The notes beneath the pieces are model-generated. The model was not told where the DNA came from, ran no database searches, and saw only the letters and a program-made list of their open reading frames with translations. Below are positions 3,339 to 34,598 of a DNA stretch of 48,759 bases, piece by piece; the stretch's first letter is position 1; the number at the start of each line of letters is the position of its first letter. Source of the stretch: Photobacterium sanguinicancri (lineage in GTDB: Bacteria; Pseudomonadota; Gammaproteobacteria; Enterobacterales; Vibrionaceae); contig NZ_NOIF01000014.1 in assembly GCF_002265265.1 (NCBI RefSeq), positions 1 to 48,759 on the forward strand, given 5' to 3'. The translations under genes were made by a program, and so were the position numbers.

Positions 3339-4179
3339 TAATTATTACTCCAAAACAGACTTGATAGGTTGCTGGCAGTTGGCCTTTCTCATCTCTAAAC
3401 TCATCGTAAGCGCGTTCTAAAGCCTGAATTGTCTTGCGACTAGCTAAGCCTGCTTTGCGTTCTCGCTGCAGATGCGTCGCCCCTATCCCTTTCAGGTCTT
3501 TCATGAGTTCAACTGCCGTATTATATTTCACTGTAATCGGAAGGAATTCTAGGGTATCGATTTCGCCCCCCGCTTGCGCCAGCGCAAGTTTTACCGCCTT
3601 TTGCGAAAGAAAGTGGTTCACATGTTGATATTGATCAACCTGCTGCCACGCATAACGAAGCTCACACAATGAATTTTCTGCCAATGTGGTGAATAAAATA
3701 CACCCACCTGGTTTGACCACACGTCGTAGCTCTTTTAAAGGTATTGATAAATCAGTACACCACTGTAACGCCAAAGAGGTATATGCAACATCAAAGCTAC
3801 TATCAGAAAAAGGGAGCTTTTCTGCGTCCCCCTGTTGATAAGTGATTTGGTTACCACAGCGCTGTTTCGCCTGTTCAAGCATCTGTGACGATAAATCTAT
3901 CGCACAAACATCAAAGCCACGATTGGCGAGTTGCTCTGAAAAATACCCAGTGCCACACCCAACATCGATCAATTTACTCCCCACAGGCATCAATGTAGGG
4001 AGTTTTTCCAAGAGTTGGTAGCCAACAAGTCGCTGAAAAGCGGCGGATTTATCATAATTCGCAGCCGCTTTACCAAAGGCCGCCGCGATAGCCTCTTTAT
4101 CAGCATACTGATTGTGTTCTAACTGGCTGGCTGACTCTGGGGAATTAATAGCTAACACCGCTTTTGCAACATCAGTCAT
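3331..4179 (-). CDS. bioC: Malonyl-ACP O-methyltransferase
   Basis: BioC uses S-adenosylmethionine to methylate the free carboxyl of malonyl-ACP, which lets fatty-acid enzymes build the pimeloyl chain of biotin. The SAM-binding motif VGCGTGYF lies near residue 74, and the conserved entry block [12 protein letters not shown] begins near residue 33. The protein has 282 residues, about 30 more at the N-terminus than the E. coli enzyme. The start overlaps the bioF stop by eight bases and the stop overlaps the bioD start, so expression should be coupled. No bioH is visible in the window. Confidence 0.95.
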
Positions 4180-25240: not shown

Positions 25241-28057
25241 ATGCGTGCTTTCATTCGCATCATGGCTGTAGCCATGCTTGGTGGAATATTAACAGCCTGT
25301 GGTGGTGGAGGCAGTGATGATCCTGTTGTCGCACCACAAGAAGCTGTTGAAATATCTAGTCGATTTACCGTGACGGTAGATGTACCTGAAGGGCTAGCGA
25401 CGGCTTATCAATCAACATCGCCCAAGTCCAAATCACCGCTATCAATCAATATTATTAGTACCGCTTACGCTGATATCCTATCCAGCCTCCAAGAAAAGAA
25501 TTTCAAAGTGGTACTGATCGACGGGCAAGGGAAAATCTATCGTACCTCTACCCTGTCTGGCTGGAAAAAACTCAGCAATGGCGGCTATCAATTTGATGCC
25601 GACACCTCGTTGCGAATGAACGCCATACTCTTAGTTGATCTCTTCAATGAGCCTGAGGTTATTATTGGTGACCCTTTACCTAAATACCTCTACATGGTGC
25701 CATTAACCAGCGGTGAAGTGGTCGTGTCACTAAACAGTACCCTCGCCTACCAAGCCATCGCAAAACGTGTCGTCGAAAAAGGTGATTGGGGGGTATTTCT
25801 CGAAACAGTTGTTGATCCTAACGTGCGTAAACTCCGTGAAGCGACTGCCTACATGACGCAGATAAACAGCGAGATAGAATCGGCTTTACGTCCGCAATTA
25901 GGCACACTCGGCATGACGCTGCAAAATATTTTAATACTGACCAAAGTAAAAGATATTACCGATGGCATTATCGATCGTACCTACTCTGAGCAACTCGGCG
26001 CAGAAGGTAACATCGAAGCGATATTAACCGACGGTTATTGGCGTCTAAAAAGTTTTGATTCGAACCAAGGTAGCGGTATCAATGCAAACCAATACGCTTA
26101 TGATGGCGCCGAAACCCGCCAGACAGATACAGGCTGGCGAAAAGACGGTAGCACCGACATCAACTTTTCCACTTACTTTACCTATTTCAGTGAAAGTACC
26201 CGCTTTTCATCTAATGATATTTCGAAGCAAGTATTCACAGGTGGCGGTTGGCAAGGCTTATTCGATTACGACAAAGTTGTCTTAACCACAAAAAAAATAG
26301 CCGTCATGTCCAATTCGGCTCTACAAGGCAGTGAAGAACTGGGTAACAATTTAAGCGTGAAAGTGTATCCGCTTTCAGGTAAGAAGATCCGTTATTTCTT
26401 GTCATCGAAAGATAATCATCACATCAGTAAATACATCCCTGCCGAGACAGAATTTACCGAGGATACATACGGCTTCTATTTCACGTGGCAACCGCAACAA
26501 GAACAGTATTTATTGTGTGACACCCGCGACAACAACGATGCTTGCCGAGTCAGTGCACCCGCTCAACCCAGCGTGCATATTACCGCGCTTGAGGATGTTT
26601 CGAGTAATGTACGAGCCAGCCAAGTATTAGAGGTAAAAGGCTTTACCTTATCTGATAGATTCGTCGTTGAGTTCATTGAAGATGACGGCTTTTTTACTGC
26701 TTATTACTGGTTCAATATCGCGGGCGATAACTGGGATGTGTTCACGGAAGGCACTTTCGCCCCTGTCACATTAGGTAATACCGAGTTTATTCAATTTGTG
26801 GTGCCAGATATTGTCAAACAGCTTGATGATAGTTACCGCTTCACCACCAACAACCTCTTTTTGGTGGAAGACCGAAACTTCGTCAACATTGGGGAAACCT
26901 TATTGAAATTCGAAGCCTTCCATTTCGCAGGTTTCGATAACAACGCCAAAGCGCAGATTTTTTCCGCAGCAAGTCGCAGTAACCTACCACCCTTTGGTCG
27001 CTGTAGCTTTGGGGATACCTCAACAGCAACAACGGATAAGTACCTCAACGCAATTATTGAATGTGGGGGCGATGAACGCTTTACCGCCAGTGATGTTGAT
27101 GGGCTAATTAACCAACATCTAGTCCAACTAACAGATACTGGCGATATCGACACCGTCATCCTAAAACCTGACAACACTTGGAAATACTATATCAATGGTG
27201 ATCGTCAATTTAACGATCGCACTTGGGCGCACACGCCTGAAGGTTACCTCAAGATCAACTGGGATCCAGCCCAAGAACAAGATTTTGATTTAATGGCAGT
27301 CACTAGCCGAGATCGAAACACTAACCTCTATGCCTATAAAGTGTTCTTCTCGCGCTTTGATCCTTTTGGCCCTGTAATAAACTCTATCTTTTCGTCTATC
27401 AACAAAGAATATTCACCGTTTGAACTCACCGCGTGTACCACTGGTGATTCTGGTTGGGATATGACGACCGTAGCACCCTTAACTAAATCAACCCAAGTCC
27501 AATATCAGAATGAAACTGCGGCTTGTATGGTCGGTTGGGATAATAAAGTCGTTCGTTTTAACGAAGCAATGTTAATTGGTGAAACCGGCATTGCAAGCGA
27601 TGACAAAGCCCTAAAGTTTGCCAGCGACAGCTCACGCTTTCTCAAACTAAGTGATGAATTCGATGGCGATTTTTTCCGTGGAAAATATATCGATTCTGCA
27701 GGTTGTGGTTTCAACATTGATATACATTGGAAAATAGATGAAAACGGCAGTCTGTTTTATCAAGCTGTTGATGGCTCGCTTAATGAGCGTATCACCATGA
27801 CAGAATCAGATGGCTTACGCTTTACAATTAAAGCCTTCAATCATCAAACACGCTGGCAAGCAGCGCTACAATTTGCCACCGATGACGGTGAAGTTTGGAG
27901 CGATACAATCACCTTTATTAGCGCCAGTGACGTGCCTAATGTGACGACGATTCAACCGCCAGTTGTGCCAGAAGGACAGCCACAACCCCGTCCACCCGGT
28001 ATTGCAAACGGCACAATACTTGATGACGGACGTGCTTGTGAATACGTTACGCCATAA
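25241..28057 (+). CDS. Large orphan outer-envelope lipoprotein
   Basis: This 938-residue protein begins with a lipoprotein signal (basic N-end, hydrophobic core, lipobox LTAC with C20) and then GGGGSDD, so it is lipidated. Gly/Asp after the cysteine leaves inner versus outer membrane sorting undecided. I recognise no domain. The body is rich in aromatic and acidic residues with repeated Trp/Gly/Tyr patches, suggesting beta structure. Several cysteines in the last third (RCSFGD, IIECGG, ACTTGD, AACMVGW, SAGCGF) could form disulfides, and the end is proline-rich. GGGGAG precedes the ATG. It appears monocistronic. Confidence 0.85.
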   Translation: MRAFIRIMAVAMLGGILTACGGGGSDDPVVAPQEAVEISSRFTVTVDVPEGLATAYQSTSPKSKSPLSINIISTAYADILSSLQEKNFKVVLIDGQGKIYRTSTLSGWKKLSNGGYQFDADTSLRMNAILLVDLFNEPEVIIGDPLPKYLYMVPLTSGEVVVSLNSTLAYQAIAKRVVEKGDWGVFLETVVDPNVRKLREATAYMTQINSEIESALRPQLGTLGMTLQNILILTKVKDITDGIIDRTYSEQLGAEGNIEAILTDGYWRLKSFDSNQGSGINANQYAYDGAETRQTDTGWRKDGSTDINFSTYFTYFSESTRFSSNDISKQVFTGGGWQGLFDYDKVVLTTKKIAVMSNSALQGSEELGNNLSVKVYPLSGKKIRYFLSSKDNHHISKYIPAETEFTEDTYGFYFTWQPQQEQYLLCDTRDNNDACRVSAPAQPSVHITALEDVSSNVRASQVLEVKGFTLSDRFVVEFIEDDGFFTAYYWFNIAGDNWDVFTEGTFAPVTLGNTEFIQFVVPDIVKQLDDSYRFTTNNLFLVEDRNFVNIGETLLKFEAFHFAGFDNNAKAQIFSAASRSNLPPFGRCSFGDTSTATTDKYLNAIIECGGDERFTASDVDGLINQHLVQLTDTGDIDTVILKPDNTWKYYINGDRQFNDRTWAHTPEGYLKINWDPAQEQDFDLMAVTSRDRNTNLYAYKVFFSRFDPFGPVINSIFSSINKEYSPFELTACTTGDSGWDMTTVAPLTKSTQVQYQNETAACMVGWDNKVVRFNEAMLIGETGIASDDKALKFASDSSRFLKLSDEFDGDFFRGKYIDSAGCGFNIDIHWKIDENGSLFYQAVDGSLNERITMTESDGLRFTIKAFNHQTRWQAALQFATDDGEVWSDTITFISASDVPNVTTIQPPVVPEGQPQPRPPGIANGTILDDGRACEYVTP

Positions 28058-28423
28058 CGGAGTGTGGCGTCACAATTGGCTACTATTTAATAACAATTAA
28101 AAACAATGCATCGCGCCTTAACGACAAAGTTTTGGCGCGATTTCCGTTTCATTTGTGACAAATAAATCTGATAAATTCATCTGTGTCAGTTTTATCCACC
28201 ACTATCACATTACAAAGTATGCAATTGCATGCGCCACATCACAATAACCATACCAAAACCAATGATTAACATTTTTAATCAGTAACATATCAATATGTGT
28301 GATCATCCTTCCACACTGCGTACGGTCAGAGACACCGAATAATTTGTCAAATTAAAGAGTCTACTTCAAACAACAAGCGGCATTAGACCGCAGCGTCATC
28401 AATCGCTTTTAAGGAAGAAATAC
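28058..28423 (+). other. Intergenic region with lipoprotein terminator and chemoreceptor promoter region
   Basis: A perfect 8-bp hairpin, ATCGCGCC (28110-28117) with GGCGCGAT (28134-28141), followed by T-rich sequence ends the lipoprotein gene. Further on, TGATTAA-CATTT-TTAATCA (28263-28281) is a perfect 7-bp inverted repeat that could bind a regulator. No gene is seen. Confidence 0.5.
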
Positions 28424-30043
28424 ATGCGATTAACCATTGCTCACAAACTATTACTCACACTGCTAGCCGTTTTTACACTGGTACTTGCCGCGTCGTTAAC
28501 CTATGAATCTTATCAACAGAAAGCCTTGCTCCAATCAGTAATTAGCGAGCAAACGCTCGATAAAGCTGGCAACTATTTTGATAGCTTAAACATGATGATG
28601 TTAACGGGCGCTATGGGACAGCGAGAAACTCTTCGTCAAAAAGTACTGTCACACTCAGGTATCGACAATGTCCGTGTGATCCGCGGCGAAGGCATCACCA
28701 AATATTTTGGTGCGGGTTTGAAAGGTCAAACTCCTGTTGATGAATTCGATCGCCGTGCCTTGCTGGGCGAACAAATTGTTGAAACAGTTCAGACCCCAAA
28801 TGGGCAAAACTTACTGGTTGCTCTCCCTATGAAAGCGAGCAGTGATTATCGTGGTACAAATTGTTTGTCGTGCCACATAGTGCCAGAAGGTGAAGTACTG
28901 GGGGTTGTCCGCCTTGAATATAGCCTCGGCCCACTCTATGAGCGTGTCAACAAAGAGCTATTACTTGCAGCCGGGATCATGGCATTAATTGCCGGTACTG
29001 GCTTCTTATTCGCTTTATTCATGATTCGCCGCATTATCGTGCGTCCGCTACGCCGTGTATCAAACTACATGAAGCACACCAGTATTAATAAAGACCTTAG
29101 CTCACGCCTGAACGAAACACGCCAAGATGAAATTGGTGAACTCTGCCAAAGCTACGATCAACTGCTCGATAACTTCTCTGCAAGCTTACAACAGGTGCAA
29201 ACCACATCAGAATCACTGACACTTCAAGCAAATGAACTAATCTGTGTTGCCTCCAAGACCACTCATGCAGTCGAATCACAGCGATCGGAAACCACTGACA
29301 TTGGTGCGGCAATAGAACACATGCAACAACAACAGCACAATGTTGAGCAACGCACCGCAGAAGCCGCCACCCTAAGTCAAAATGCGTCCGACTCCGCACG
29401 CCAGGGTACACAGTTGGCGATCAGTGCTGGCGATGACATTCGTTACTTAGTGAAAGATATTGAGAACGTGCAAACACGAATAAACCACCTGAATGAACAA
29501 AGCAGCCAAGTGACAACAATTTTGGATGTCATTCGTGGGATTGCTGAACAAACTAACCTACTCGCATTAAACGCGGCGATAGAAGCGGCACGCGCGGGAG
29601 AACAAGGACGTGGCTTTGCCGTCGTTGCCGACGAAGTGCGTAATCTTGCGACACGTACCCACCAAGCAACAGGCGATATTCAAACCATTATTGAAGTTTT
29701 ACATCAAGGCAGTGAGGCATCAGCCAAAGCAGTAGAAGATACCTGTAAAACAGCCTACGCAAAAATGGAAACCATTGAACAGTTGTCACAAGCTTTATCT
29801 GATATAGGTAATCATATTCAGGTAGTTAACACGCATGCGAATGACATTCAGCAACAAAGTGCCGAACAAGCCAATATGGCAGATTCAGTAAATATAAAAA
29901 TTGAAACCATTACCCGTCATGCGGATGAAACTTCATCTCATGCCATGCAATCTAAAGAGATTAGTGTAAATCTTGAACAGTTAGCAGAGCAATTAGAGCG
30001 ATTACTTCATCAATTTACGCTTTCAAGTGATAACAAAGCTTGA
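28424..30043 (+). CDS. Methyl-accepting chemotaxis protein with c-type haem motif
   Basis: This 539-residue chemoreceptor has a membrane helix at residues 9-26, a periplasmic sensor, a second helix at about 179-200, a HAMP domain and a cytoplasmic signalling domain. The latter has the hallmark hairpin tip, [20 protein letters not shown] followed by [15 protein letters not shown]. Near the end of the sensor is C147-L-S-C150-H151, a covalent c-haem attachment motif in the correct compartment. That suggests redox, oxygen or nitric-oxide sensing. The sensor resembles Tll0287-like (DUF3365) haem domains. AAGGAAG precedes the start. Confidence 0.92.
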
Positions 30044-30142
30044 TGCTTGACGTAAGACAGGTAATATTAATGCTTCGGAATGTATCTTAAAGCACAATAT
30101 GTCAATTACGACCAAAGTGCCTTAACGGAGAATAATTTAAAC

Positions 30143-31543
30143 ATGACTTACGCGCCTGTAACAGACGTATTAAGCGGAAAGCTGGCAGTAGACACTGAAG
30201 TCACTGTCCGCGGTTGGATCCGCTCACGTCGTGATTCCAAAGCTGGGATCTCTTTTCTTGCCATTTATGACGGCTCTTGTTTCGACCCGATTCAGGCCGT
30301 GGTCCCAAATGAGTTAAATAATTACCAGGAAGAAGTACTTAAACTGACAACTGGTTGCTCTGTTGAGGTCACTGGTAAGATTGTTGAGTCTCCTGCTAAA
30401 GGTCAAGATTTTGAACTAGCTGCAACAAATGTAAAAGTTGTTGGTTTAGTTGAAGACCCAGACACATACCCAATGGCGAAAACTCGTCACTCAATCGAAT
30501 ACCTTCGTGAAGTGGCTCACCTTCGTCCTCGTACTAACATGATTGGTGCTGTAGCGCGTGTTCGTAACTGTCTATCGCAAGCTATCCACCGCTTCTACCA
30601 CGAGCAAGGTTACTTCTGGATGTCTGCACCACTTATCACAGCGTCTGACTGTGAAGGTGCGGGTGAAATGTTCCGCGTATCAACGCTTGATCTTGTGAAC
30701 ACACCAATGACTGACGCTGGTGAAGTCGATTTCGATAAAGACTTCTTCGGTAAAGAAACGTTCCTAACGGTATCTGGCCAGCTAAATGCTGAAACGTATG
30801 CTTGTGCACTAAGTAAAGTGTACACATTCGGCCCTACGTTCCGTGCGGAAAACTCAAACACAAGCCGCCACCTAGCTGAATTCTGGATGGTTGAGCCTGA
30901 AGTTGCTTTTGCTGATCTTAACGATGTAGCAAAACTAGCAGAAGACATGCTGAAGTATGTGTTTAAAGCAGTACTTGAAGAGCGTCGTGACGATCTTGAG
31001 TTCTTTGCACAACGCATCAACAAAGACGCAATTTCTCGTCTAGAGAGCTTCGTTGATTCTGACTTCGCACAAGTTGATTACACTGACGCAATCCAAATCC
31101 TAAAAGATTCTGGCCGCGAATTTGAATTCGATGTTGAGTGGGGCATCGACATGTCTTCTGAGCACGAGCGTTACCTTGCAGAAGAACACTTCAAAGCTCC
31201 TGTTGTTGTTAAAAACTACCCGAAAGACATCAAAGCATTCTACATGCGTATGAACGATGACGGTAAAACAGTAGCGGCAATGGACGTTCTAGCACCTGGT
31301 ATCGGTGAAATCATCGGTGGTTCTCAACGTGAAGAACGTCTAGAGCTTCTAGACAAGCGTATCGACGAAATGGGTATCGACCCAACTCACCTAGATTGGT
31401 ACCGCGACCTACGTCGTTACGGTACAGTTCCTCACTCTGGCTTCGGTCTTGGTTTTGAACGTCTAGTGACTTACGTAACGGGCATGCAAAATATCCGTGA
31501 CGTAATCCCGTTCCCACGTGCACCACGCTCTGCAAACTTCTAA
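30143..31543 (+). CDS. asnS: Asparaginyl-tRNA synthetase
   Basis: AsnS charges tRNA-Asn. The protein is a class IIb synthetase with an N-terminal OB-fold anticodon domain ([14 protein letters not shown]), motif 2 ([22 protein letters not shown], split by its loop) and motif 3 ([10 protein letters not shown]). The ATG at 30143 gives 466 residues, equal to E. coli AsnS, whereas the longer frame from 30080 adds an unrelated stretch. A strong terminator follows. asnS also lies close to aspC in E. coli. Confidence 0.97.
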
Positions 31544-31871: not shown

Positions 31872-32384
31872 ATGCCGATTATAAAAACATCGTTATCAGC
31901 AAGCCATTTGTTACTGTCTACCCTTGCGCTTGCTACCATCATATTTTGTCTATCGCTTTTCCCAGCGACAGCAAGCGCATCGGATCAAAGCAGTAAGCAA
32001 CCTTTTACTGGTATCCCTGTCAGCACCCTAAAAAGTCACAGCGCATTGATACAGCAGATTTCACAAATCATCACCAATAAAAGTGAACAACTCGAACACC
32101 ACATTTATTTAAGTCGATATTCCCCATCCGATCTCACTACTTACGTTTATTGGCACCAAGGTAAGGAACTTTGGATTTTACCCATCAGTACTAAAGATAA
32201 CGAAAGTTGGGCGTTCATCCAATCCAACGCCAATATGCAGAGAATTGATTTACTCAATCACGTTGTTGACAGCGCAGATGATGTAGGAAGCAGTACTTTT
32301 CTTGTTGATAAAGTTTGGGCATCAAAACGCATTTACGATGCTGTTGTTGAAGGCGAACATTTAACCATCAAAATAAAGGAATAA
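31872..32384 (+). CDS. Secreted/periplasmic orphan protein, candidate immunity protein
   Basis: This 170-residue protein has a signal peptide (hydrophobic core about 13-30, likely cleavage after TASA at residue 36) and a mature domain of about 134 residues with no cysteine and no motif I recognise. Two bases separate it from the next gene, which encodes a SleB-like hydrolase without a signal peptide. A small periplasmic protein encoded with such an enzyme is the usual arrangement for a peptidoglycan-targeting effector and its immunity protein. That role is inferred from size, location and coupling only. Confidence 0.75.
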   Translation: MPIIKTSLSASHLLLSTLALATIIFCLSLFPATASASDQSSKQPFTGIPVSTLKSHSALIQQISQIITNKSEQLEHHIYLSRYSPSDLTTYVYWHQGKELWILPISTKDNESWAFIQSNANMQRIDLLNHVVDSADDVGSSTFLVDKVWASKRIYDAVVEGEHLTIKIKE

Positions 32385-32386
32385 TA

Positions 32387-33184
32387 ATGACCAGTTTTAT
32401 CGACAGTCGAGGAATAACAATCAGCTCTGTTAAAATCCCTAAAAATGATATTAAACGCCTTAGAACTAATGGGCTAACGGCACGGATAGCCAAAGACATA
32501 ACACTCACTAGTGGAAAACAAATTACTTCAACCTTAAAACCCAACCCATATAATGGCGGGAAAGGTCAGTGGACAATCGATATAAAAGCCACCGCTGTTG
32601 GTAAAACGACATTAAAAGCAAAAGCGGGAGCAAAAGAAGCAACTCTAGATATTGAAGTATTTGCTAAAAAAATCATTCAATTACCCGAGAAAAATACCGA
32701 ACAAGGCCTACTCGCAAGACTATTTATTGCAGAATCCGTTAATCCTAGTAGCCCTCGCTATAAAGAAGTTGATGCGTCTACCTCTATGCTTTGGATGCGT
32801 CAGGTAATAGAAAACCGTAAGTCCGACAATAAACCTTCTCGATTTGCAATTAGTACGAATACAAATGTCACTTATAAAGATGTCATTACCGCCAGAAATC
32901 AATTTCACGGCTTTGAAGGCTACCCTAGTCTCATTGAATCTATCAGCAATAACCTATCTCTCATCATGACAATCGCCAATAACTATAATCATCCTGAAAG
33001 AGAAACCTATTCAAATTTCGTAACAGCAGCACTTAATGCGGCAAAAGCTAACGCACTTGCGAAATTTACAGATCCAACGTCAAATGGACTCTATGGGTGG
33101 CGAACAAAAGGATCTAGTGAACCAGGCGGTGACTTTGTAAAACATGGCAATCTAGCAGGTCAAACATTCTACACATTAAAATAA
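32387..33184 (+). CDS. Ig-like plus SleB-like cell-wall hydrolase, candidate secreted effector
   Basis: The 265-residue protein lacks a signal peptide. Residues 9-93 look like a beta-sandwich, Ig-like domain (TLKPNPYNGGKGQWTIDIKA, then TTLKAKAG, TLDIEV). Residues about 105-265 resemble SleB/Hydrolase_2 cell-wall hydrolases: LLARLFIAES with E116 as likely catalytic acid, QVIENR, the DVITARNQFHGFEGYP block and a C-terminal GNLAGQTFYTL close to the family's terminal pattern. Encoded just after a secreted partner, it fits a type VI or similar exported effector. No secretion genes are in the window. Similarity was judged by eye. Confidence 0.7.
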   Translation: MTSFIDSRGITISSVKIPKNDIKRLRTNGLTARIAKDITLTSGKQITSTLKPNPYNGGKGQWTIDIKATAVGKTTLKAKAGAKEATLDIEVFAKKIIQLPEKNTEQGLLARLFIAESVNPSSPRYKEVDASTSMLWMRQVIENRKSDNKPSRFAISTNTNVTYKDVITARNQFHGFEGYPSLIESISNNLSLIMTIANNYNHPERETYSNFVTAALNAAKANALAKFTDPTSNGLYGWRTKGSSEPGGDFVKHGNLAGQTFYTLK

Positions 33185-33220: not shown

Positions 33221-33535
33221 ACTAACATTCCCCCCTTTAACTATCCTCCTTACCTCTTGAACATTCTCCTATTTTTCAACACGTTCGCTCTCTCGACAAC
33301 AAAGTAAGGGCGCATTTTCGCTACCTGCATCAAGGTTCATTTGCTACTGGTCAGGTATTATACGCATTCGGTCACTTAGCATTACTTCAATCCCTCTTGT
33401 GGTTACCCAACCTACCTCAAGGGCAGAAAAAATTCTGACTTAAGGAATTCAAGCCAAACAGGTTTGCCAGATTAGGTTTTGGCTGTTGATTCGACAGCTC
33501 TGAAATCGGGCAATACAAAAGGAAGCGATCAATTT
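33221..33535 (+). other. Intergenic region before the MauE-like gene
   Basis: About 315 bases hold no supported gene. The sequence is pyrimidine-rich at first. A near-inverted repeat, AGCCAAAC with GTTTTGGCT, lies around 33451-33484. GGAAG at about 33520 serves the next gene. Confidence 0.35.
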
Positions 33536-33982
33536 ATGAAAACTAAAGGGTATTTCCATCTTTTTGTTACCTCTTTTGTGCTGCTGTGTGCGGCGGCGCT
33601 CACGGTCAAAGGATTTGTCTTATCGGAACACACTAGATTACTACTTAGCGATACTGGCATCGTCCCTATTATGTATGCCGAATCAATCGCTTTTGCCTTA
33701 CCGCTTGTGCTTGGCATTAGCGCACTCACCACCTACTTTGGCATTACAACATTAATTCCTGTTATTGCGGCTTTTAGCATACACATTGCCCTATTGGGGC
33801 TAGCGCTTCATCAAGGCTTACATTTTGATTGCGGCTGCTACCTTCCGGGTTCGCTTCAGTCAGAAGTGTACAGCACACTTCAGCCACAATTTATCATCCT
33901 ACTGCTAATCCTTAGTGTTTCAGCAGCACTTTATTATTTCAATAACTTGGCAAACCACCGCGCTATGACACCAACCGTCTGA
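33536..33982 (+). CDS. MauE/DoxX-like redox membrane protein
   Basis: The ATG at 33536, with GGAAG upstream, gives 148 residues with four hydrophobic segments. It has FDCGCYLPGS, a two-cysteine motif typical of MauE-like proteins that pass reducing equivalents across the membrane. The next gene, a periplasmic rhodanese, starts 37 bases on, so the two probably work together in envelope thiol or sulfur chemistry. The exact substrate is unknown. Confidence 0.75.
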   Translation: MKTKGYFHLFVTSFVLLCAAALTVKGFVLSEHTRLLLSDTGIVPIMYAESIAFALPLVLGISALTTYFGITTLIPVIAAFSIHIALLGLALHQGLHFDCGCYLPGSLQSEVYSTLQPQFIILLLILSVSAALYYFNNLANHRAMTPTV

Positions 33983-34019
33983 TGTGGCGGCGCAAGCCTA
34001 CTTTTATAAGGATACAATC

Positions 34020-34598
34020 ATGAGACAAAACAAGGCATCTTTGCACTCGCTTTCTTTCCTACGTATCGGACGCAGCTTTTCACTCAACATTCTTATTCTT
34101 GCCAGCGCATTGTTAACCTTACCGTTGAGTGCCAATGCAGGGCTGTTCGGCGGTAAATTCAAAGCCGAAGTAGAGACAGAACAAGTGGCCATCAAACTTC
34201 ATAATGAAACCCTAGCTGGCAACTATCAGCTTATCGACACTAACGGGCTCAAAGCACTCACCGAACAAGATACTGATGTAATGATTGTCGATGCAATGCC
34301 GTTCAAAGACAGCTACAAGAAAGAACATATCCCAAGTGCTATGCAATTCGAGTTTCCTATCCCTAATATGCCAGAGTGGGATTCAGCATTAACCGACCAA
34401 AAATCAGTTGAGGACTTCACCCAGCTTCTTGGTGAAGACAAGAGTAAAACCTTGGTCTTTTACTGTGGTTTCGTGAAATGCAGTCGTAGCCATAATGCTG
34501 CTGCTTGGGCAGTGAAGCTCGGTTACACCAATGTCTATCGTTACCCTGGTGGTATTTTTGCGTGGAAAGGCGCTGGCTTTAAAACCGCTTCGCTATAA
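34020..34598 (+). CDS. Periplasmic rhodanese-domain protein
   Basis: The 192-residue protein has a signal peptide (hydrophobic core about 21-34, cleavage near SANA) and one rhodanese domain. VDAMPFKDSYKKEHIPSA is the entry motif. The active-site loop is YCGFVKCSRS, whose first cysteine is the expected sulfur carrier and whose second could form a disulfide with it. YPGGIFAWKGAGF ends the domain. AAGGA precedes the ATG at 34020. It likely forms an operon with the preceding MauE-like gene. Confidence 0.85.
   Translation: MRQNKASLHSLSFLRIGRSFSLNILILASALLTLPLSANAGLFGGKFKAEVETEQVAIKLHNETLAGNYQLIDTNGLKALTEQDTDVMIVDAMPFKDSYKKEHIPSAMQFEFPIPNMPEWDSALTDQKSVEDFTQLLGEDKSKTLVFYCGFVKCSRSHNAAAWAVKLGYTNVYRYPGGIFAWKGAGFKTASL

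Follow-up and report, generated by a model that had tools for sequence, protein, structure and literature searches.

The receptor gene at positions 28424–30043 of the window (the whole stretch of 48,759 nucleotides of Photobacterium sanguinicancri DNA analysed here) probably encodes a c-haem chemoreceptor, with a single Cache sensor in which His151 and Met59 would coordinate the haem iron, and in which release of Met59, driven by a change of redox state or by nitric oxide (NO), would lead to a taxis response. Receptors of this kind, with a near-obligate haem motif, are common in Photobacterium, Vibrio and their relatives. New details are the asnS neighbourhood of the gene in most of the Vibrionaceae loci examined and a shortened sensor–HAMP form in another genus.

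Receptor architecture and conservation of the motif

The open reading frame (ORF) starts with ATG and encodes a product of 539 amino acids which, from the ORF and its Pfam matches, is arranged as a first membrane helix (TM1), a putative c-haem Cache sensor, a second membrane helix (TM2), a HAMP domain and an MCP signalling domain, all on the forward strand. The approximate positions of TM1 (28442–28498) and TM2 (28958–29026) come from hydropathy, with hydrophobic 19-residue windows beginning at residues 2–11 and 177–188. The aligned region of the periplasmic single-Cache sensor covers residues 22–176 (28487–28951; the structural model reaches 28963), its first residues, from residue 22, overlapping the end of TM1. 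HAMP (PF00672, residues 201–250, 29024–29173) and MCPsignal (PF00015, residues 343–497, 29450–29914) both lie above the Pfam cut-off, which makes the product a methyl-accepting chemotaxis protein. The CLSCH haem-attachment motif (28862–28876, residues 147–151), with Cys147, Cys150 and the predicted proximal ligand His151, is found some 25 residues ahead of TM2. Because hydrophobic windows flank CLSCH and both HAMP and MCPsignal come after it, the motif is placed between the membrane helices. By composition, about 0.0013 CXXCH motifs would be expected in a receptor of 539 residues, and the window receptor is the only CXXCH carrier among the 30 distinct chemoreceptor ORFs of the genome, these being the ones of 38 Pfam matches that were given as loci.

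The unbiased test of conservation is a profile that ends before CXXCH, searched against 295 genomes of the order. It gave 74 matches (the window included) in 68 genomes, and when all the sequences were read CXXCH was present in 73 of them; the lone match lacking it is marginal, with 41 residues and an E of 5e-4 against this motif-free profile. Since matches to a profile free of the motif keep CXXCH this consistently, its presence is not due to chance, and within the 295-genome sample the sensor, to judge from these sequences, is never retained without its motif save for that one marginal match. Accordingly, the initial annotation, which had read CLSCH from codons 147–151 inside a periplasmic sensor just before the second membrane helix and had named loss of the motif in orthologues as what would refute a haem, is confirmed on the first point by the ORF, codons, hydropathy and Pfam, and withstands the second.

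The other sets agree, with the note that the sets of 16, 80, 30, 44 and 74 sequences overlap in part and include the window. CXXCH occurs in 16/16 relatives, in 30/30 strong phylum matches (window included) and in 41/44 weak ones, and the three weak matches without it are fragments. The 40 weak phylum loci were picked by hand out of a longer list, with L196 duplicating L155. The figure for named GTDB loci (79/80, the best 80 of 264, with an ambiguous base in the His codon of the eightieth) is biased because the search patterns contained the first Cys of the motif. The sensor is carried by 14 of the 52 genomes of the genus, two of which (G000 and G459) are the same species, and the sensor or a recognisable relative by 97 of 398 sampled phylum genomes. 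Such receptors had been called known but uncommon: that they are known holds, and in view of the latter count "uncommon" needs to be qualified. In one genome (locus L158), three chemoreceptors with related CXXCH-bearing sensors are found close together.

Homology, predicted fold and haem ligands

The sensor is homologous to the c-haem sensors GSU0582 and GSU0935, through intermediates only. A profile built from the window and ten relatives reached, among solved structures, GSU0582 (3b47) with an E of 5.3e-10 and GSU0935 (3b42) with 2.7e-8. The window sensor alone matched no solved structure in the PDB, and a profile of closer relatives did not reach 3b42 or 3b47, which is why the link is said to run via intermediates. 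That profile gave LytS (E 0.048) together with short cytochrome and other matches; LytS and the short cytochrome matches are superseded by the broader profile. In the reverse direction, three profiles of distant relatives only found the window receptor at E values of 5.6e-13, 6.4e-22 and 9.7e-20, and still at 4.7e-7, 1.1e-14 and 1.1e-10 when the motif was masked, whereas none of the genome's 29 other receptors did better than an E of 160 against the distant-relative profiles. The window CXXCH aligns with the CQSCH of the solved sensor, at the equivalent place and including the His.

The sensor was modelled with AlphaFold2 (mean pLDDT 80). The model begins with two N-terminal helices, one long and one short; it also has four strands, another two short helices and a closing C-terminal helix, and pLDDT is lowest near Met59 and the motif (block means 59–64). 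The predicted fold of the sensor is thus that of a single Cache domain in which CXXCH sits between the last two strands, 3 and 4; sCache_heme, a structural class of single Cache domains, is described as having its CXXCH inserted at the same place (preprint PMC12889525, cited here, like PMC8396549 below, from the parts available to us). Foldseek matches of the model include WalK, GSU0935 (3b42, E 3e-4, ranks 5–6), CitA and Tll0287 (5b82, E 0.034). In VIA-align, among the matches listed, WalK gave a Z of 12.7 and an rmsd of 2.5 over 124 residues, and DcuS and CitA gave Z values of 10–11; 3b42 is missing from the 50 rows listed there, an absence that carries no weight.

Ligand-binding Cache domains, the citrate sensor CitA among them, are found with the nearest folds, which would suit a small-molecule sensor that takes a soluble ligand as its signal and has a structural haem, and a haem with Met/His ligation would also be compatible with a structural or electron-transfer role. 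We consider this reading unlikely, as the motif is near-obligate (one marginal exception among 74 matches in 295 genomes) and related solved sensors switch ligand with redox state (PMC8396549, in part); an additional soluble ligand would still be compatible with a sensing haem.

The predicted distal haem ligand is Met59 (28598–28600). This conserved residue aligns with residue 26 of the 3b42 chain, or Met60 once numbered by the offset of His144, so that the distal methionine of GSU0935 has its counterpart here by position only. Met59 is kept in 50/52 diverse sequences, the exceptions being a Val (L172) and a gap in a partial sequence (L182). These loci were picked by hand and cut around a CXXCH; the motif in 52/52 of them is therefore by construction, and only the Met count is informative. 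The methionine is found in 80/80 named loci (best 80 of 264), and the corresponding column of the 44 weak rows holds 34 Met and 10 gaps. In the dimer crystal of GSU0935, one haem is ligated by His144 and Met60 and the other has water, while the haem in the GSU0582 crystal has water instead of Met; Met60 of GSU0935 binds the reduced haem, detaches when it is oxidised, and in the reduced state gives way to CO and NO (review PMC8396549, as far as available).

The genome also encodes the haem chaperone CcmE, the maturation gene that was looked for. The CXXCH motif is found in non-haem proteins too, and the motif alone is no proof of a haem; it could bind a metal or form a disulfide with no haem attached. 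We regard this as very improbable here, since two homologous sensors carry haem c at this position in their crystals (PMC8396549, in part), the His and Met are conserved and CcmE is encoded. The proposal of the initial annotation that the periplasmic sensor bears a c-type haem is strongly supported by the near-obligate motif, the homology to GSU0582 and GSU0935, and CcmE: a haem is very probably bound permanently to the outer sensor.

Putative signal and genomic context

In the mechanism that we infer, which covers the presence of the haem, the switch of ligand, the signal and the direction of taxis, one c-type haem would be covalently attached to the Cache domain via Cys147 and Cys150, outside the membrane, by the cytochrome c maturation system. 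His151 would be the proximal ligand, and Met59, towards the end of the first and long helix of the sensor, most likely the removable distal one. Met59 would be released or displaced when the iron is oxidised or when NO binds it in the reduced state, and its departure would shift the helix continuing from TM1. TM2 and HAMP would then relay the change to the signalling tip and on to CheA, allowing the cell to steer by redox poise outside the cytoplasm, by NO or by both. The predicted methionine switch is approachable by single substitutions.

As to the signal, tight NO binding, and no stable complex with oxygen, is described for a related sensor-HAMP protein (preprint PMC12889525, available parts), and redox state or NO is therefore favoured over oxygen. 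By homology, these two signals appear to fit better, oxygen sensing being less likely. A c-haem serving mainly to sense oxygen has been proposed for DcrA of Desulfovibrio vulgaris, a periplasmic c-haem chemoreceptor for which both redox potential and oxygen are described (PMC8396549, in part). Such a role is improbable for the window receptor, because the sCache_heme proteins tested (a sensor-HAMP protein, a stand-alone one and the Cys variant of the latter) formed no stable oxygen complex according to the available text of the preprint PMC12889525, and because oxygen would have to compete with a methionine as sixth ligand.

A link to NO through nitrite reduction, drawn from the co-occurrence of NrfA, is suggestive only. 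In the genus, NrfA (PF02335) is found in 12/14 sensor-positive versus 8/38 sensor-negative genomes (Fisher p 4e-5, uncorrected for kinship), with five partial matches (E 1e-4 to 1e-5) left uncounted, including one from a sensor-positive genome. For the order, the corresponding values at E<=1e-50 are 36/67 and 50/228 (p 1e-6, again uncorrected for kinship), with G048, a marginal match without the motif, dropped. As 31 of the 67 sensor-positive genomes of the order lack NrfA, nitrite reduction by NrfA as the source of NO does not explain the spread of the sensor; families f10, f13 and f17 have the sensor without it. Copper nitrite reductase exceeds the cut-off in only 2/52 genus genomes, both sensor-positive. 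If the preferred redox/NO reading is true, cells that encounter host NO, nitrite respiration or steep redox gradients could read them outside the membrane, and swim accordingly.

We have also considered FNR-type control of the receptor gene. The best FNR-like site in the 366 bases before the gene (28087–28100) has two mismatches and nothing ties it to the gene, and this control was rejected. The whole window holds 59 FNR-like sites with at most two mismatches versus 37.8 expected, a number reached in 0 of 100 shuffles; the single perfect site is at 3625–3638.

Downstream of the receptor, on the same strand, lies an ORF (30080–31543, start probably at 30143) that we take, from its sequence, to be asnS; this conserved neighbour is context only. 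The asnS gene was found in the receptor locus in 9/9 other Photobacterium genomes and in 66/80 named loci (best 80 of 264), counts bounded by the limited locus flanks, with strand order read in examples. The receptor gene adjoins asnS in most Vibrionaceae loci examined. A functional link between the two was rejected, the conservation being one of order only and the intergenic gap 37–100 bases, according to which start is used.

A shortened form of the protein is found in another genus of the same order (g236, which we assume, from its gene content, to be perhaps Aeromonas). There, 15/15 matching sampled genomes carry a TM–sensor–TM–HAMP protein of 269–281 residues, with asnS in the same locus in 15/15 and no MCP domain after the stub. 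In the example on the reverse strand of L230 (4581–5396), to which 14 loci among L232–L250 are similar, Pfam finds HAMP only in a protein that appears to combine a haem-Cache sensor with TM and HAMP. The median pairwise dN/dS of 0.18 (104/105 pairs, range 0.05–0.36) argues that the stub is not decaying, and a full chemoreceptor copy is also present in 6 of the 15 genomes. Further afield, a GGDEF signature occurs in the same ORF in 24/40 weak phylum loci. A wider reading, which we put forward tentatively as possible though somewhat short of probable, is that there is a large Pseudomonadota branch of Met/His c-haem Cache sensors, with MCP and GGDEF among its outputs, that the Pfam profiles largely miss, and that its asnS-locus orthologue in g236 lost the signalling half and has been kept by purifying selection. 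Because the sensor–HAMP stub is kept without a signalling half, the haem module may act alone or via a partner receptor, needing no output domain of its own. The truncated orthologue is a natural experiment on a haem sensor without its output.

Three other parts of the window may be mentioned here. Between queE and the receptor, a lipoprotein-like ORF of 938 residues (25241–28057) has no Pfam match at E<=0.01. It appears to be fast-evolving, because its identity is 44–48% in eight Photobacterium loci, with 93% for L031 as the nearest, compared with 79–84% for queE, where present, and 92–96% for asnS in the same loci. Two adjacent ORFs of 170 and 265 residues (31872–33184) are likewise without a Pfam match at E<=0.01, and a rhodanese-domain protein encoded after a MauE-like membrane protein (33479–34598) may form a thiol-redox pair with it.

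Comparison with known c-haem sensors

In Pfam, the sensor of the window protein has no family above the cut-off. Weak matches in Pfam, including one to dCache_1 (14 bits against a cut-off of 45), were discounted. PF11845 and PF21563 have no match in the window protein at E<=10, and PF11845 finds nothing in the whole genome at the same threshold. When ten relatives were tested, PF21563 gave one match above the cut-off and five below it, while PF11845 gave five below and one, for L193, clearly above. PF21563 (Mcp40H-20_sensor) is named for class 40H chemoreceptor sensors, and we take its model to be built on the sensor domains of GSU0582 and GSU0935. The branch to which the window receptor belongs appears, from these profile searches, to be largely beyond the reach of Pfam.

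Chemoreceptors with c-haem are discussed for Geobacter, Desulfovibrio and Anaeromyxobacter (PMC8396549 among others). Among the open-access papers listed, including the available parts of PMC8396549, PMC3460858, PMC3831638, PMC9777591, PMC13401364 and the 2026 preprint PMC12889525, and as far as titles and abstract openings show, there was no report of the receptor in Vibrionaceae.

Compared with the sCache_heme class (DUF3365/Tll0287-like, PF11845), the window sensor shares the predicted single Cache with CXXCH between strands 3 and 4, and signalling members of the class likewise carry TM and HAMP fusions; one, from Pseudomonas azotoformans, binds NO (PMC12889525, preprint, in part). The class profile, in contrast, matches neither the window protein nor its genome, and the axial ligand of Tll0287 is a cysteine (same source), whereas a methionine is predicted here. 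DcrA is similar in being a chemoreceptor with a periplasmic c-type haem associated with redox or oxygen, but it has a cytoplasmic PAS domain (PMC8396549, in part) and Pfam finds none in the window receptor. The closest likeness is to GSU0582 and GSU0935, with which the window receptor shares a periplasmic Cache/PAS-like chemoreceptor sensor, the aligned CXXCH and the TM-HAMP-MCP output, and, for GSU0935, a helix methionine (Met60) aligned with Met59. It differs from them in falling beneath Pfam recognition, in the spacing from Met to His (92 versus 84), and in the YRGTNC before and PEGEVLG after the motif, which are kept in close relatives. The kind is already known from Geobacter, and the window receptor represents a further, widely conserved branch of it.
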